This document shows, piece by piece, positions 3,583 to 10,210 of a stretch of 10,415 nucleotides of DNA. Where the stretch lies: contig JAJYRF010000051.1 of assembly GCA_021794255.1 (NCBI GenBank), forward strand, positions 1-10,415. Direction: 5' to 3'. The notes under the pieces are model-generated. The model ran no database searches, was not told the origin of the DNA, and saw only the letters and a list, made by a program, of their open reading frames with translations. The translations under genes were made by a program, and so were the position numbers. The first letter of the stretch is position 1, and each line of letters starts with the position of its first letter. This stretch comes from a bacterium. Its GTDB lineage: Bacteria; SZUA-79; Acidulodesulfobacterales; Acidulodesulfobacteraceae.

Positions 3583-3700
3583 TGAACTACTCTCGCCTAA
3601 GAGGCGTGAGCTTCCTGCTTCATCGTATGACGACTAATACCGGTATTCCGATATCCCGCCGGCTCATACTCCACAGGCGTAAACTCCGACAGATTACTGC
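3582..3700 (-). ncRNA. Predicted TnpB omegaRNA (right-end RNA)
   Basis: TnpB guide RNAs are made from the 3' end of tnpB and the right end of the element, with the guide following the end. Here the last codons of tnpB overlap a structured region: the 12-base palindrome AATACCGGTATT (3636-3647), a short hairpin TCGTCATACGA (3623-3633) and the right-end hairpin (3590-3610). The guide would start just beyond TTCAC at about 3581 and read into the interrupted gene. The 5' limit is a guess. Confidence 0.6.
3590..3610 (-). repeat. Right-end hairpin of the TnpB element
   Basis: The minus-strand stem is CTCACGCC paired with GGCGAGAG, with one A-A mismatch and the loop TCTTA. It contains the stop codon of tnpB (3597-3599). 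It precedes AGTTCAC, where TnpA would be expected to cut the right end. Confidence 0.65.
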
Positions 3701-4910
3701 CGTATTTTGAAACATATTCTAATAAGAATATTAATCCTTCGAGGAATAGATTAATACTAGCATTTATATCTCTATCATGAGTAATTCCACATTTAGGACA
3801 TGTCCATGATCTTTTTGATAACTTAAGATCCTTATAAACATAATCACAGTTTAATGTTGAACATTTCTTTGATGATGGATAAAATCTGTCAACTTCGATT
3901 ATCTGTCTTCCATACCAGGATGCTTTGTATTTGATCATGTCTACAAATCTACTCCATGATACATCCGATATAGATTTAGATAAATGCCGGTTTTTAATCA
4001 TTCCTTTAATATTAAGATCCTCAAGAATAATAACTTGGTTATCGTTTACTATTCTTGAGGATAATTTGTGTAAAAAATTATTGCGTTGATTAAATATATG
4101 TTCGTGTAATAAAGATAATTTGTTTTTGAATTTAAGATAATTCTTAGATGAGGTAGTTTTGTCTTGCTTAGTCCTTTTATGGACTTTTCGATTTAACCAT
4201 CTTGATAATTTAACTAACTTTTTCTGGGATTTAAGTAAGTATGTAGGATTAGGTATTTTGTGAGTTTGTTTATCGTTGATGTTGGTTCCGGTAGTGATAG
4301 TAGCAAAATCTTTAATACCTAAGTCTATACCAGTTGATATACCGAGTGTTTTTTTAGGTATATATGGAGTGTATTTGAATTTATCTATAAGCATATTAAC
4401 ATAGTATTTACCTGATGTGGTTTTAGAAATACTAATAGAATTGACTGTTTCGTAAAAATGTCTGTGAAACTTAACTTTTATAGATGATTTTAATTTAGGA
4501 ATTTGTATGGTATTATTTACGATTTTGAAACTCTGAGGTATTACTATACTGTTATAAGAGTATTTCTTTTTAAAGTTAGGATATCCTGCTTGTTTAGTAA
4601 AGAATCTATGGTAAGCATCATCTAAAGCTCTAAGACTACCTTGCAGAGATTGTGAATTAGCCTCTTTTAAAAAAGGGAACCCTTTTTTTAATAATGGTAG
4701 TATTGCTGAGTTAGAATGGTAATTATTTTTAATATTATAGTTTTCGTATAAGTTTATTGTCCTTTCTAAGAAGAAGTTATATACGAATCTATGATATCCG
4801 ATTTGTTCGTTAAAATATATTATTTGTTCTTTATTGGGATATATGCGGAATCTGTAAGTATAGAATTTATTATCTTTATCCTTAGTTTTATTCTTATTTC
4901 TAGGATTCAT
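3597..4910 (-). CDS. tnpB: TnpB RNA-guided endonuclease
   Basis: TnpB is the transposon-encoded, omegaRNA-guided single-RuvC nuclease from which Cas12 enzymes evolved. The 437-residue protein has the N-terminal helix-turn-helix/WED region (YRFRIYPNKEQIIYFNEQIG, residues 19-38), RuvC-I (GIDLGIKDFAT, Asp196), RuvC-II (IILEDLNIKGM, Glu297), a zinc ribbon (Cys350, Cys355, CPKC at 371-374) and RuvC-III (HDRDINASIN, Asp381). The first zinc pair is spaced CxxxxC rather than the usual CxxC. The basic C-terminal tail ending KQEAHAS is encoded by the omegaRNA region. Length and motifs are those of a full, probably active protein. No ribosome binding site is visible before the ATG at 4910. A strong promoter lies about 70 bases upstream. 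The cellular role inferred for the family is to cut the empty donor site and so favour retention of the element. Confidence 0.95.
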   Translation of the reverse strand: MNPRNKNKTKDKDNKFYTYRFRIYPNKEQIIYFNEQIGYHRFVYNFFLERTINLYENYNIKNNYHSNSAILPLLKKGFPFLKEANSQSLQGSLRALDDAYHRFFTKQAGYPNFKKKYSYNSIVIPQSFKIVNNTIQIPKLKSSIKVKFHRHFYETVNSISISKTTSGKYYVNMLIDKFKYTPYIPKKTLGISTGIDLGIKDFATITTGTNINDKQTHKIPNPTYLLKSQKKLVKLSRWLNRKVHKRTKQDKTTSSKNYLKFKNKLSLLHEHIFNQRNNFLHKLSSRIVNDNQVIILEDLNIKGMIKNRHLSKSISDVSWSRFVDMIKYKASWYGRQIIEVDRFYPSSKKCSTLNCDYVYKDLKLSKRSWTCPKCGITHDRDINASINLFLEGLIFLLEYVSKYGSNLSEFTPVEYEPAGYRNTGISRHTMKQEAHAS

Positions 4911-5788: not shown

Positions 5789-6718
5789 TTAATTTTCCTT
5801 TTTTAATTTTTTTATATTTTTAAATATTTCGTTTAATTTAATTGAATTATTTAATTCATGTATATTTTTAAAATCATAAGACGATAAACTATATTTATTT
5901 TTAACGAAATCGATATACATAGAAAATTCTCCATCGTTGCCCATAAAGTATGTTTTCCATGTATTATGGTCTATGATTTCTTTTAAATTTAATTGATTAA
6001 TTGCTAAGTTATCAAAAGCTAAAATTAAATTGTCGGTTTTAATCAGATTTAAAATTGAATTTTTAATTCTTTCGATATTAAGTTTGACGGCATGATTTAA
6101 CATATAATATGTTTCTCCCCTGCCTTTCTTTTTGTATCCTAATATTAATATTTTATTTATTTTATTGTCGATCATATGTTTTATTTCGTTGCATGTGTTT
6201 ATGCCCAGAATCGTATGCATAACTATTTTATTTTTTAACGGTTTAGGCAGATTTTTAATATAATTAATAAAACTATCGTCGTAACTGTTATATACAGATA
6301 TTCCGATTCCGTATACTTTGTTAAATAATTCTTTTTTTGTTTCGAATATCGTGTAATTAGAATTTTCGATATCTTTTTGGTTTATCGTGACGGATGGGAA
6401 GTTGTTTATTCTTAATTCGTCGATAAGTTTTTCTATTTCGGGATAATCTAAAATACAGCCACCGCCTATAGCGATTTCTATTCCTTCGGTATTTTTAAAT
6501 AACGATAAAATATCGTCGATATTTGCGTGTTTACCTTTTACGGATGATGATTCGGCGCACCATTCGCATTTATTTTTACAATAGTCGGTTATTTTAATAT
6601 CTATTGATTCCGGGTATTTTGGTTTATATTTAAAACCGCTTAACAGATCGAACCTGATTTTGGTTCCGGATTTTTTATCTATGCCGTAATTATAATTGCC
6701 GTTATTATATATGTTCAT
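5789..6718 (-). CDS. Radical SAM protein, phage type
   Basis: Radical SAM enzymes bind a 4Fe-4S cluster through CxxxCxxC and cleave S-adenosylmethionine to start radical chemistry. The 309-residue protein has IKITDYCKNKCEWCAESS with Cys47, Cys51 and Cys54. It also has a GGxxxxDYPEIEKLIDEL segment (from residue 85), which corresponds to the SAM-contacting GGE loop of the family but reads GGGC. Later strands IGISVYN, KIVMHTILGI and ILILGYKKKGRG continue the partial barrel. There is no SPASM-like Cys-rich C-terminal extension, so no auxiliary cluster is evident. Its ATG overlaps the TGA of the upstream gene by four bases (ATGA), indicating translational coupling. Radical SAM proteins with a GYKxxGRG-like segment occur in large phages, from memory of that group. 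The substrate is unknown; a peptide or nucleotide substrate is possible. Confidence 0.88.
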   Translation of the reverse strand: MNIYNNGNYNYGIDKKSGTKIRFDLLSGFKYKPKYPESIDIKITDYCKNKCEWCAESSSVKGKHANIDDILSLFKNTEGIEIAIGGGCILDYPEIEKLIDELRINNFPSVTINQKDIENSNYTIFETKKELFNKVYGIGISVYNSYDDSFINYIKNLPKPLKNKIVMHTILGINTCNEIKHMIDNKINKILILGYKKKGRGETYYMLNHAVKLNIERIKNSILNLIKTDNLILAFDNLAINQLNLKEIIDHNTWKTYFMGNDGEFSMYIDFVKNKYSLSSYDFKNIHELNNSIKLNEIFKNIKKLKKEN

Positions 6719-7407
6719 TTTGCTGTTTCTTTTTGTAGGGATTTTTTAAAATCGTCTATGGAATTTTCATATTTACCGAAAATATTTTTTATTCCTTTGG
6801 TTCTGGTAAAAGGGTTTTTGATGATTTTTCCTTTATGATTTATGATAATGTCTAGTTTTCTTTGATCTTCGGAATTATCGTTTCCGCCGACTATTATGAT
6901 TTTGGGATTAAAGACTATATCCCATAGATTGTTTAATATTGTGATGATATCTTTACTGTTTTTTATGGATATTTTATCCGATATTATGCTTTGATGATCT
7001 ATGTGATGTATTTCTCTGACGTCTTTTGCAAAATCTATCGGTATCATTATGTTGTATCCTAATTTTTCAAGTAAGATATTTTTAAATAAGCCCCAAATGA
7101 ATTTTTGGGATTTACTGTATTGTTCTGTATCGTCATCGTCGTTGTTTAGTGTTGGGAACCAGTTTGTATTTAATATTTGGGATATTACATAATCTAATTT
7201 TTTTGGTTCCGATGTTAAGACGAAATTATCCCAGTCGTATTCTTCTTCCAATATGAATTTTTTGTAAAAATCTATATTATTATTTTTTTTGCGATCAGCT
7301 TTTTTTAATAATTCTTGTAAAGTTTTATTTGTATTATTTTCTTCGGTTAAAACTATCTCATGCGTAGAGCTTGAATTAGTTTCAAACATATTAAATCTGA
7401 ATTTCAT
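6715..7407 (-). CDS. Hypothetical phage protein with N-terminal FETNSSSTH segment
   Basis: A 230-residue acidic protein starting MKFRFNMFETNSSSTHEIVL. An N-terminus of the type NxFETNSSSxH recurs in uncharacterised phage and bacterial proteins, as I recall the pattern. The Asn-Ser-Ser-Ser stretch in such a constant position suggests an active or modified segment rather than a linker. The rest is mixed: an acidic loop (NNDDDDTEQ), a region with IREIHHIDHQS-like His content around 135, and a C-terminal strand (PKIIIVGGNDN, then KLDIIINHKGK). A textbook AAAAGGAG stands eight bases before the ATG, just downstream of the Cas12a-type stem-loops. Its stop overlaps the start of the radical SAM gene, so the two are produced together. 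Whether this protein is a substrate or partner of that enzyme is inference. Confidence 0.8.
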   Translation of the reverse strand: MKFRFNMFETNSSSTHEIVLTEENNTNKTLQELLKKADRKKNNNIDFYKKFILEEEYDWDNFVLTSEPKKLDYVISQILNTNWFPTLNNDDDDTEQYSKSQKFIWGLFKNILLEKLGYNIMIPIDFAKDVREIHHIDHQSIISDKISIKNSKDIITILNNLWDIVFNPKIIIVGGNDNSEDQRKLDIIINHKGKIIKNPFTRTKGIKNIFGKYENSIDDFKKSLQKETAK

Positions 7408-7460
7408 TTTTTTGTCTCCTTTTAATCCGTTGGTTATTATTTTGAGAGTCTATACATATT

Positions 7461-7481
7461 TGATCTACGATAGTAGAAATT
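7461..7481 (-). repeat. Cas12a repeat-like stem-loop, copy B
   Basis: The 21-base match to copy A includes TCTAC-TATC-GTAGA and the two bases CA after AGAT. A Cas12a crRNA made here would use the following bases (AATATGTATAGACTCTC) as guide and lies about 55 bases before the FETNSSSTH start codon. It is therefore also in that gene's leader. Confidence 0.75.
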
Positions 7482-7537
7482 TTAATTTATATTTATTTTT
7501 TTTTAATGTAGGGAACATTAATTTATTGTCGTGAAAC

Positions 7538-7558
7538 TGATCTACGATAGTAGAAATT
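7538..7558 (-). repeat. Cas12a repeat-like stem-loop, copy A
   Basis: Identical to copy B over 21 bases. It begins seven bases after the stop of the 98-residue gene. The putative guide that follows on the minus strand starts GTTTCACGACAATAAATTAA. I found no matching protospacer in the window by eye. Confidence 0.75.
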
Positions 7559-7565
7559 AATATAT

Positions 7566-7862
7566 TTATTTATTTATTATATCTGTTATTTTATTATATT
7601 TAAAGCATTTTTGGAATATATTAAATATGCGGTCTATTGTTTCGGCGTCGTAATATCTGATTGCGTATCTTTTTATGCATGTTGTTGCCCATTCTTCTGC
7701 GAATTCTTGAGACATATTGTATTTTGATACCATCCATGAAACATAATCTTTGAAATATTTTTCCGCGTTTTTTTTATTGTCTATTTTCATCGCGGGACCT
7801 AATATTTCTTCTAATGTCGTATCTTTTGGGTTAAAAGTTATTTCATTTTTTATTTTTTTCAT
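7566..7862 (-). CDS. Conserved hypothetical protein (GPAM...YYD type)
   Basis: A 98-residue helical protein. The sequence LEEILGPAMKIDNKKNAEKY, then EEWATTCIKRYAIRYYDAET and RIFNIFQKCF, resembles a family of small uncharacterised bacterial and plasmid/phage proteins with a GPAMxI opening, a YYDxET turn and an LFxC close. This is from memory of the pattern, not a search. It has two Cys residues. AAGGAA lies seven bases before the ATG. The last codons overlap a candidate promoter, and the stop is followed at once by the first Cas12a-like stem-loop. Function unknown. Confidence 0.75.
   Translation of the reverse strand: MKKIKNEITFNPKDTTLEEILGPAMKIDNKKNAEKYFKDYVSWMVSKYNMSQEFAEEWATTCIKRYAIRYYDAETIDRIFNIFQKCFKYNKITDIINK
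7576..7604 (-). promoter_or_regulatory. Candidate promoter for the repeat-like RNA
   Basis: On the minus strand, TTTAAA (7604-7599, four of six matches to the -35 consensus) is followed after 17 bases by a perfect TATAAT (7581-7576). Transcription would begin near 7569, about ten bases before copy A. The site overlaps the last codons of the 98-residue gene. The high AT content makes chance matches easy, so support is moderate. Confidence 0.35.
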
Positions 7863-8013
7863 GATTTTTTCCTTTTTTATTTAGTGTTTTTGTTTGATTT
7901 TTTTTATTGCCCCGTATTATGAATATTAAAAAAGTAAATAAAATCATATCTGCAATTAATGTGAGTGATAAATTTTCTTCTTTTATATTTTCTTCATTTT
8001 TTATTGTTTTCAT
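7843..8013 (-). CDS. Small single-span membrane protein
   Basis: A 56-residue ORF from ATG at 8013 to TGA at 7843, overlapping the start of the next gene by 20 bases in another frame. Residues 16-34 (LSLTLIADMILFTFLIFII) form one clear membrane segment. It is flanked by an acidic N-terminus (KNEENIKEEN) and a Lys/Asn-rich C-terminus, so the tail would face the cytoplasm. The upstream site is a weak AAAGAG. The clear hydrophobic core and operon position support it. Function unknown. Confidence 0.5.
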   Translation of the reverse strand: MKTIKNEENIKEENLSLTLIADMILFTFLIFIIRGNKKNQTKTLNKKGKNHEKNKK

Positions 8014-8027
8014 GGTTTTTTCTCTTT

Positions 8028-8654
8028 TTATTTAGTGTTTTTATTTAAAAGCGCTTGATAATTAATTAACAAATTATGTAATTTAACGGGCGTGTGGTTT
8101 ATATTATCAGGAGATATGTTTATAAGTTTGTCGAATATTTTTGTTTTTTCATGAATATGACCATGGATATTTAAATCGAATTTGTCATTGATGAAGATTT
8201 TGTTTAAAGAATCTATATGGTATTTAAATGGATCCTCGTAATTAAGTAGGAAATTGTCGCTTGGATGTATAATTTTATAAATATTTTCTACAGGATAGTG
8301 GGAAAATAGTATTTTTACGCCGTTAATTTCAGCTTTTACGGCGTTGATTATTTTGTAATCGCTATTTATTATGGTTATGCCGTAATCACGATACATGCTA
8401 ACGGCATATAAATCATGATTGCCTCTTAGCAAAAATTTTTTGCCTTTTAATAAATTGCAATATCTGTTTAATCTTGATTTGACGATTTTATCGCCGTCGT
8501 CGGAGATAAAATCTCCTAAGATAAAAACTGTATCCATATCTGAAACAACGGAATTCCAATTGTTTATGAGATATTCGTCGTAGCGGGAGCTTACCGAATT
8601 AAAATCTCCGAAATGTGTATCGGCGATAAGGAATATTTTGTCCGTTATTTTCAT
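8028..8654 (-). CDS. Calcineurin-like metallophosphoesterase
   Basis: This 208-residue protein carries the full set of metallophosphoesterase motifs: ADTHFGD (Asp12, His14), GDFISD (Asp48), GNHD (78-81), SHYP (His119) and HGHIHE (His164, His166). Together these bind two metal ions and cleave phosphoester bonds. The compact single-domain form is close to the YfcE/phage-type phosphoesterases, whose substrates include phosphodiesters and cyclic nucleotides; the exact substrate cannot be told. No signal peptide is present, so it is cytoplasmic. The ATG at 8654 lacks an obvious ribosome binding site, unlike most genes here, yet the DTH motif sits at the normal distance from it. It is the first native gene after the right IscB element. 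Confidence 0.92.
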   Translation of the reverse strand: MKITDKIFLIADTHFGDFNSVSSRYDEYLINNWNSVVSDMDTVFILGDFISDDGDKIVKSRLNRYCNLLKGKKFLLRGNHDLYAVSMYRDYGITIINSDYKIINAVKAEINGVKILFSHYPVENIYKIIHPSDNFLLNYEDPFKYHIDSLNKIFINDKFDLNIHGHIHEKTKIFDKLINISPDNINHTPVKLHNLLINYQALLNKNTK

Positions 8655-8685
8655 TTTATTAATATCGGTTGTTGTTAATTTTGTT

Positions 8686-8755
8686 TTAAAAGTAGTCTAT
8701 CAATAATCGCTGTAATATCCTTTGATTTATTGATGGGGATATAAGGCAATCATTT
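8686..8755 (-). pseudogene. Possible C-terminal remnant past the IscB element
   Basis: Just past the iscB stop an open frame of about 20 codons runs to TAA at 8686 (LISPSINQRILQRLLIDYF) with no start of its own. It could be the 3' end of the small gene whose 5' end is at 10169-10300, split by the element. The right boundary of the element is not visible, so this is weakly supported. Confidence 0.25.
8701..8732 (-). other. Imperfect inverted repeat after iscB
   Basis: CAATAAATC and GATTATTG can pair as eight base pairs with one bulge around a 15-base loop. On the minus strand a short run TTTT follows some ten bases later. It could be a weak terminator for iscB or part of the element's right end. 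The evidence does not separate the two. Confidence 0.25.
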
Positions 8756-9949
8756 TTAGTTAAATTGTAATCCTTTTCCATAAACTAATATATCTGCTTT
8801 TTTAATATTAATATTAAAAATTTCGTTTAATTTGTTTTTTAATTTAACATATTTGCCGTAAGAGTAGACGCCTATGACTCTGAAAACTTCTTTTTCGCAT
8901 TTCACCAAGTCATTCGGTTGCATTTTATATCTTATTTTTTTTATAGACGGCTTAAAGCTTTTGCGGTTAAGTTGCGTGCATCTATTCTGCCTGCGGGTAA
9001 AAGAACCGCTAATAACATCCGTCCTTTCTTGCCAACTCCCGCCCGCTATGCAAAAGGCGTCGTTAGAATGAGATTTATTGAGTTTTAACGCTATCCTTGC
9101 GGACTTGGTAAGGTAGCCGTAAGTAATACTGACGGTATAGCCAAGTTCTTTTAACTTATTAACTATTTTCCACCGCAGGATAGACATTACCGTTTCCGCT
9201 TTAAAGGCTTTATGTTTCTTAATGGATAGCTTAATCTTGCCCTTGTGATACGCTTTATGACAACTTTTGCAGAGAGTAATTAAGTTGTCTGGTCTATTTC
9301 CGCCTATCTGTCTGCTTTCGATGTGATGAACATTTAATACCTTATCTTTGTTTTTACCATTACAAGCTTGGCATATATGGTTATCACGGTATAAGACATA
9401 CTCCCTGATATTCCAAAATCCTGCTTGCTCTCCGTTTTGATATTCAACGCCTGATATATCAGGATCCTTAATTTTTTGAATATCGAAAGCAGCAGCTTCG
9501 ACGGTAATCTTCGTAACTGGTAATATAGACTTAACAAATTCTATTGCTTTGATATGTTCGTTAAGCCTGTGTTCTATCGACGGAGTTAACCAACCGGCTT
9601 TAATACCACGGTTTAAGAATTTCGGTTTGCGATACCAAAGCCTATTGCGTCTTATCCTGCGGTATTGCCTTTTTTCGGATAAGAGCTTCGGTATATCCGT
9701 TCTTAGTCCTATTTCGGAGTTAAAGAGTTCCTTAGTATCCGATACTGCTGAAAGTCCGATAAACTTATAGCCGGTATCAACTCCTAATTTGGTATCTTGT
9801 TTTACTTCTCCTGTTGCATAAGTAAGTTGAATCGTAAATGGAGTTCTCATAATTACTTTAGCTAATCTTTTTCTCAAAAGTTTTCTTGCTTTGCCTGGTG
9901 TAGTCGGCATTAAAGGTTTACCATGCATGTTTAAGACGAATACTCTCAA
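8756..9949 (-). CDS. iscB: IscB RNA-guided nuclease
   Basis: Numbered from the TTG at 9949, the 397-residue protein has the PLMP domain (HGKPLMPTTPGKARKLLRKR, PLMP at 12-15), RuvC-I (LGVDTG, Asp58), an Arg-rich bridge helix (RRIRRNRLWYRKPKF, 97-111), RuvC-II (VEAAAFD, Glu151), an HNH insert (CQAC at 193-196, His208-His209, RPDN at 219-222, CKSC at 227-230), RuvC-III (SHSNDA, His294 and Asp297) and a C-terminal TAM-interaction region (KMQPNDLVKC to VYGKGLQF). The frame stays open upstream to 10150, but that stretch is the structured omegaRNA. The TTG gives MRVFVLN, the family's usual beginning, and has AGAGGA eight bases before it. The other IscB also starts directly after its leader. Alternatives are the ATG at 10129 (with AGGGGG upstream) or at 9928. 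All catalytic residues are intact. Confidence 0.93.
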   Translation of the reverse strand: MRVFVLNMHGKPLMPTTPGKARKLLRKRLAKVIMRTPFTIQLTYATGEVKQDTKLGVDTGYKFIGLSAVSDTKELFNSEIGLRTDIPKLLSEKRQYRRIRRNRLWYRKPKFLNRGIKAGWLTPSIEHRLNEHIKAIEFVKSILPVTKITVEAAAFDIQKIKDPDISGVEYQNGEQAGFWNIREYVLYRDNHICQACNGKNKDKVLNVHHIESRQIGGNRPDNLITLCKSCHKAYHKGKIKLSIKKHKAFKAETVMSILRWKIVNKLKELGYTVSITYGYLTKSARIALKLNKSHSNDAFCIAGGSWQERTDVISGSFTRRQNRCTQLNRKSFKPSIKKIRYKMQPNDLVKCEKEVFRVIGVYSYGKYVKLKNKLNEIFNINIKKADILVYGKGLQFN

Positions 9950-10210
9950 GTTTCGTCCTCTCCTGCCGGAGAGTAGGTTTTCTTCGGGGTTGTTATTAAC
10001 CGTTTTTAAGTCCGCCACACTGAGAGTTTCCTCTCTGTTTAATAACGGACCACAGTTGCTACGGACTAGAGAATCCGTAGGTGTGTTCCTTAAGGTTCTT
10101 GTTAATAACTTCTGCGATTTAATTTTCATGATTAAATGCCCCCTAATCAACCATTAGATATCTTGTCGTCACCGACAAGCCCCGTCCGAAAGGGCGGGGT
10201 GATTGACTTT
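9950..10210 (-). ncRNA. IscB omegaRNA (HEARO-type leader RNA), copy 2
   Basis: Hairpins in order on the minus strand: 10180-10199 (loop TTTC), 10162-10179 (perfect 7 bp, loop GTGA), 10143-10157 (5 bp), 10059-10080 (7 bp), 10022-10035 (5 bp, loop GAAA) and 9958-9973 (perfect 6 bp, loop GGCA) just before the iscB start. The length of about 260 bases and the hairpin order agree with the leader at 1038-1306 despite little sequence identity. Stem bases differ in compensating ways while the TTTC and GTGA loops are kept. The guide would be the AT-rich flank just above 10210. Confidence 0.8.

Follow-up and report, generated by a model that had tools for sequence, protein, structure and literature searches.

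Paired type V-A repeat cores in an intergenic gap of a likely phage element are candidate decoys for host Cas12a

Our analysis favours a reading, which we consider probable, whereby a 158-bp intergenic gap in a likely phage element encodes a decoy RNA that would sequester host Cas12a and work like the published type V-A RNA anti-CRISPRs. The gap lies in the 10,415-nucleotide stretch of DNA analysed here (the window) and contains AATTTCTACTATCGTAGAT twice without a mismatch (minus strand, 7558-7540 and 7481-7463); this 19-mer is the processed repeat of type V-A (Cas12a) crRNAs. The observations in favour of a decoy are the exactness of the two cores, their orientation, their intergenic position, their identity to real V-A repeats and the evidence that such cores form a non-random class in viral contigs. 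In our model, transcription toward a 230-aa ORF downstream, starting perhaps at a promoter that closely precedes core 1, or else farther up the operon, would produce a transcript with two V-A processed-repeat hairpins. Cas12a, with which we infer the host to be equipped, would attach to every hairpin, cleave the RNA immediately 5' of AAUUUCUAC and stay loaded with an RNA whose "guide" spares the phage, so that immune crRNAs would find less Cas12a available. With two cores, a transcript would offer twice the binding sites.

Results

The two V-A cores and their surroundings

Core 1 (7540..7558, minus strand) consists of an AAUU motif, a stem of UCUAC and GUAGA and a UAUC loop, and the same 19-mer occurs in genuine V-A arrays; core 2 (7463..7481, minus strand) is identical and lies 77 nt downstream measured start to start, leaving 58 nt between the cores. 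The copies agree exactly over 21 bases (7461-7481 and 7538-7558), which are part of a direct repeat 41 nt long and 85% identical; the orientation of the cores is that of the flanking minus-strand genes. The first-pass annotation of this DNA, which had reported two exact 21-base copies running with transcription inside a 158-base intergenic gap, was therefore correct. A scan of the whole window found no further match to AATTTCTACTATCGTAGAT at up to three mismatches; shuffled windows gave 0.01 matches on average, and 0 of 200 shuffles contained two.

By sequence and predicted fold, both cores have the AAUU motif, five-pair stem, tetraloop and 19-nt repeat length of a Cas12a-binding crRNA handle. 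According to excerpts of PMC6507119, a mature Cas12a crRNA comprises a 19-nt repeat and a 23-25-nt spacer, the AAUU motif and the conserved stem are required for crRNA maturation, and the tetraloop of the AsCpf1 crRNA is UCUU. If Cas12a processed core 1, the would-be guide 1 would occupy 7516..7539, and the would-be guide 2 would occupy 7439..7462 within the leader of the 230-aa ORF (minus strand, 24 nt each); both are placed by position only.

The part of the repeat 5' of the core is a different matter. By BLAST, copy 1 is 94% identical over 33-34 nt to an array repeat from Prevotellaceae, a good-looking match that would suggest full-repeat homology 5' of core 1 and that we set aside as AT-rich background: the scores of the 17-nt parts upstream of the cores are reached by 29 of 500 and 24 of 500 shuffles and by 11 of 104 window stretches. 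The upstream half of the repeat, annotated as degenerate, is not recognisable, and the spacing is indeed non-canonical, with 77 nt here versus 62-68 nt between neighbouring copies in genuine arrays.

The gap (7408-7565, 158 bp) separates two minus-strand ORFs without a family match, a 98-aa ORF upstream of the cores (7566..7862) and the 230-aa ORF downstream of them (6715..7407), which is preceded by a Shine-Dalgarno-like AGGAG (7416..7420, minus strand). A possible promoter (TTTAAA, 17 nt, TATAAT; 7576..7604, minus strand) ends 17 nt before core 1. It has a perfect TATAAT and a score of 10 out of 12 that is equalled by 12 of 1475 sampled stretches, and the promoter scan of 6600-8800 overall gave 16 sites against 15.1 expected from shuffles, i.e. 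not above shuffles. Scanning the gap and the flanks of the cores, we found no terminator after the cores. In the predicted fold of the gap, core 1 pairs with core 2 at -15.7 kcal/mol versus -14.7 kcal/mol for two local hairpins, and with pairs restricted to 45 nt apart the two core stems are predicted to form with probabilities of about 0.58 and 0.91. An 81-aa plus-strand ORF with a TTG start (7289-7534) covers core 2; because it overlaps the 230-aa ORF too, we treat it as spurious.

The AlphaFold model of the 230-aa ORF has a mean pLDDT of 40. This ORF has four relatives in the protein database (99, 68, 65 and 62% identity), and the 98-aa ORF has a single one, 99% identical. No viral-contig locus was found that encodes a relative of the 230-aa ORF, and none was found for the neighbouring radical-SAM ORF; phage records gave no match to the 230-aa ORF and, at the DNA level, none to the 2.7-kb region around the cores. 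No relative of the 230-aa ORF was found in 391 genomes of one class (that of G009) and 200 of another (that of G029), which as class samples carry little weight; two further class samples, of 194 genomes (class of G005) and 395 genomes (class of G031), yielded two weak partial matches in the former and two in the latter, none of them a relative of the locus.

The element that carries the cores

Judged by its genes, the window is likely to be of phage origin, for which the gene evidence is modest: its radical-SAM protein matches phrog_16999 and is, among the matches listed, 33-35% identical to Microcystis phage and Lak phage proteins, and its phosphoesterase matches phrog_547. No cas gene was recognised among the window ORFs given to Pfam (10), PHROGs (9), PADLOC (8) and NCBIfam (6), and the description of the operon as lacking cas genes therefore holds within the 10.4-kb window.

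The window also contains two IscB genes on the minus strand, about 8 kb apart, one at 3-1037 with its RNA at 1079-1303 and the other at 8756-10150 with its RNA at 9973-10207. Each has a HEARO (omega) RNA match just ahead of the RRXRR domain, and the second RNA runs across the point at which the long ORF was called to start. A TnpB-like gene (3597-4910, minus strand) encodes OrfB_IS605 and Cas12f1-like TNB domains, so that three RNA-guided nuclease genes share one window with the V-A cores. Finegoldia, Cetobacterium and Natranaerobius are among the best plasmid matches to the larger IscB, which may be taken as a weak hint at host range.

The same core in cellular and viral genomes

In the cellular genome contigs, the exact 19-mer is present in 36 stretches from 32 genomes, and several of these stretches are plain V-A arrays whose repeats, about 36 nt long, have it as their 3' half, examples being those of Paludibacteraceae, Tannerella, Prevotella and Helicobacteraceae (Bacteroidales and others). 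Cas12a is encoded, with a match over the family cut-off, by 19 of the 32 genomes; the other 13 showed none, and 11 of these are labelled MAG with no completeness given. One genome that encodes Cas12a, that of Planctomycetaceae bacterium Im510_bin130, also has single V-A cores in four places on two contigs (L142, L147, L148).

Among viral contigs, six were found with the exact 19-mer; it is intergenic in five of the six, has a terminator in four and has both in four. With the loop left free (AATTTCTACTNNNGTAGAT), at least 120 stretches match, compared to 118 for a control hairpin of the same make-up (AATTTCATCTNNNGATGAT). As the former number is not clearly higher, raw match numbers show little, and it is position alone that separates the two. 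Among the matches listed, 61 of 125 V-A cores are intergenic, 18 have a terminator and 15 have both, versus 3, 1 and 0 of 118 control matches; with duplicate flanks removed, the corresponding numbers among the matches listed are 57, 18 and 15 of 109 versus 2, 1 and 0 of 82. These class counts rest on the 120 V-A stretches listed, on a simple ORF caller and on terminators sought within 90 nt, and one array locus (seven matches) is left out of the intergenic and terminator counts. Based on the excess of intergenic positions and terminators over the control hairpin, we conclude that phage-borne V-A cores are a real, non-random class.

Part of this class has promoter or terminator signals of its own. 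Of the 113 V-A matches listed, 13 have a TAnnTTTG box, which we take to be the Bacteroidota -7 promoter element, with its end 3-6 nt ahead of the core; the figure for control matches is 0 of 80. Anywhere within 20 nt, the box is found for 15 V-A and three control matches, with L278 and L066 supplying several of the 13 and of the 15. Matches near the start of a locus, or in loci with over four matches, were dropped from this count. No cas12a was found in 18 core-bearing viral records, that of L277 included, and the control genomes likewise gave none there, though the same model did detect cas12a in the 19 cellular genomes above. Intergenic cores end 11-16 nt before a start codon in L019, L026, L081, L104, L154 and L277, of which L019 and L104 are related, and the proteins downstream of such leader-embedded cores belong to no evident common family when compared by eye. 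Searched against phage records, core 2 and its flank had three hits, all of them weak (E about 4). A 20-base stretch of Methanosarcina virus MetMV (MK170447.1, 14857-14876) is 95% identical to the V-A core and flank (E about 4), has no annotated feature beneath it and may be a chance match.

Pairs of cores are rare. They are found in four viral loci with 11-41 nt between the cores (L044, L066, L277, L278), and none was found in viral contigs with 50-80 nt between. The closest parallel to the present pair is L277, on a viral contig of 223,865 bases, in which two cores lie between same-strand genes in a gene leader, their loops differ (TTT and TAT) and the second core ends 12 nt before the ATG; a third exact core on the same contig may be due to chance, given that it is near an ORF start. 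The loops of the L278 pair differ as well (ATG and ATA). Compared with the window proteins, the 12.6-kb L277 locus and the L278 locus gave no match better than E 0.04. The 27,578-base contig of L278 (also L284 and L285) has four V-A cores with three different loops; three of them share the upstream sequence AAAGTAATGTACCTTTGTTAAA and the fourth shares its last ten bases, as if a promoter-core cassette had spread within the phage. In L064 (1350-1821, minus strand), three V-A cores with loops TCA, TCA and TCC are scattered across some 470 bases on the strand opposite to the genes on either side, and one of them has a terminator.

Discussion

Single RNA decoys are already known; a shortened pair placed in front of a gene is an unusual version of them. 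In the excerpted text of PMC10651486, RacrVA1, RacrVA2 and RacrVA3 are reported to inhibit the Moraxella bovoculi V-A system rebuilt in Pseudomonas. The present cores resemble these Racr V-A RNAs, as described there, in that an intergenic repeat-like RNA of the same repeat type is carried on a mobile element without cas genes and is expected to compete for Cas12a. They differ, in a comparison made by description, in comprising two truncated 19-nt cores 77 nt apart that lie in a gene leader and have no terminator. The annotation of the cores as repeat mimics acting as decoys is strengthened insofar as the core is identical to real V-A repeats, phage-borne cores are non-random and V-A RNA anti-CRISPRs work, while binding and cutting by Cas12a are steps that the cores would be predicted to undergo. 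Several observations argue against a decoy: a terminator 3' of the cores is missing, unlike in 15 intergenic V-A matches among those listed, the match covers 19 of the about 36 nt of a full repeat, the predicted fold of the gap has a slight preference for pairing the cores with each other, the raw number of viral V-A matches is not clearly higher than that of the control, and 13 of the 32 genomes with the 19-mer showed no Cas12a.

Coverage and spacing set the cores apart from what published searches look for. As far as the excerpts of PMC10651486 describe it, SRUFinder demands a bit score of 41.1, counts full matches within 100 bp as an array and treats a coverage of 50-90% as partial. The cores are intergenic with no cas gene beside them in the 10.4-kb window; they cover 19 of 36 nt, with the upstream part at about background level, instead of at least 90% of the repeat, and each has a second copy 77 nt off, within the 100 bp in which a solitary repeat unit has no other repeat. 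Because they cover 19 of about 36 nt and lie 77 nt apart, they are not solitary repeat units by the published definition, and SRUFinder would be expected to pass over them. The main text of PMC10651486 nowhere uses the words tandem, terminator, untranslated, two SRUs or multiple SRUs, and no paired or leader-embedded V-A cores appeared in the titles and abstract starts of the open-licence PMC literature searched.

Other explanations of the pair have to be weighed against a decoy. The first-pass annotation had offered a two-unit mini-array that loads host Cas12a with phage-chosen guides. Such guides would aim it at a rival phage or a host gene, and this suggestion, which we consider unlikely, did not gain from the search for targets. 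Cas12a would process the cores like genuine repeats, and Cas-less arrays of huge phages that possibly rely on host Cas proteins have been described (PMC7162821, excerpts). With these arrays and with virus-borne mini-CRISPR arrays (PMC6858448), the pair would have in common more than one repeat, no adjoining cas genes and a dependence on host Cas. In contrast to both, the present locus has cores only, a non-array spacing and no guide target: neither guide has a convincing target in the phage and plasmid records and the loci compared. Guide matches in phages and plasmids are low-scoring and mostly AT-rich among the best 20 of each, the 132-nt stretch containing both guides reaching at best E 0.009 in phages, in a match that sits between the guides, and E 0.1 in plasmids (best 20 listed of each), and guide seeds beside a TTTV PAM are at most 9 nt long in the loci compared. 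The start-to-start distance is also outside the range of genuine arrays; type V-A arrays in Francisella have 36-bp repeats and 27-32 bp spacers (PMC6507119, excerpts), compared with cores of 19 nt and 58 nt between them here. It is very unlikely that the pair is what survives of a host V-A array that the element took up and that has been decaying since. The 41-nt direct repeat takes in part of the AT-rich upstream stretch, and an array repeat can be aligned with copy 1 and the sequence upstream of it, as would suit a remnant; the cores, however, are intact with the remainder of the repeat unrecognisable, the spacing does not fit, and we discount a remnant because the upstream parts score at about background level.

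A further explanation is that the resemblance to a V-A repeat is accidental and that the cores serve as a protein-binding dyad (operator) or as an RNA-processing stem. The sequence TCTAC-N4-GTAGA forms a palindrome, two copies before a gene would suit an operator, and the copies are able to pair with each other; yet the asymmetric AAUU and AU flanks match as well, the control hairpin is intergenic in just 2 of 82 matches, and loops vary between the copies in L277 and L278, making this explanation improbable. The gap might instead be a Cas12a-responsive leader, in which Cas12a, by binding or cleaving the RNA between the two flanking ORFs (98 aa and 230 aa), would alter expression of the phage genes downstream and so be sensed by the phage. 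The distance from the end of core 2 to the ATG of the 230-aa ORF is 55 nt, and the cores just ahead of start codons in L277 and the five other loci named above would fit such a role; any phage intergenic element often falls in leaders, though, and the absence of an evident common family among the downstream proteins also argues against it, and we have little confidence in this role. Regulation by a crRNA-like RNA that loads Cas12a is known from CreR, a regulator of type I and V-A cas operons (PMC12737573, excerpts). CreR serves the promoter of its own cas operon, as described there, unlike the cores here, in whose window no cas12a was recognised; complementarity of the CreR type amounts to three 9-nt seeds beside TTTV, all in viral loci, and the loci compared need not include a cas12a promoter.

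Returning to a decoy, we speculate, with low confidence, that large phages embed one or two cores in their own mRNA leaders, such that the transcript would be both decoy and sensor, and cutting and capping by Cas12a would retune the downstream gene. If so, the decoy would be borne on an mRNA and lie outside published search rules, rather than being a free-standing small RNA. A decoy at the present locus would further imply that the 19-nt processed core is enough for a V-A RNA anti-CRISPR, and that such RNAs can be paired and can be carried in gene leaders. Such elements may be undercounted in phages because the published rules (at least 90% coverage, solitary within 100 bp) pass over them; the consensus AATTTCTACT-N3-GTAGAT combined with an intergenic filter recovers candidates.

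Finally, we note that some phage-borne cores are joined to a second kind of repeat. We searched the titles of the open-licence PMC literature and found none on a composite two-type RNA anti-CRISPR. A repeat end of the type GTGGATTGAAAC, presumably type I-C, or a variant of it, follows an inverted repeat and lies 21-23 nt ahead of a V-A core in L004, L006, L035, L048, L078, L102 and L140, with a terminator behind the composite in six of the seven (L140 being outside the scored set). An I-C-like handle is nearby for 12 of the 123 V-A matches listed, which include six from the added loci L277, L278, L132, L139, L140 and L155, versus 2 of 79 control matches. From their sequences, these composite RNAs look like RNA anti-CRISPR candidates against two CRISPR types at once. 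In L106 and L113, the I-C-like repeat end and the V-A core are found in reversed order.
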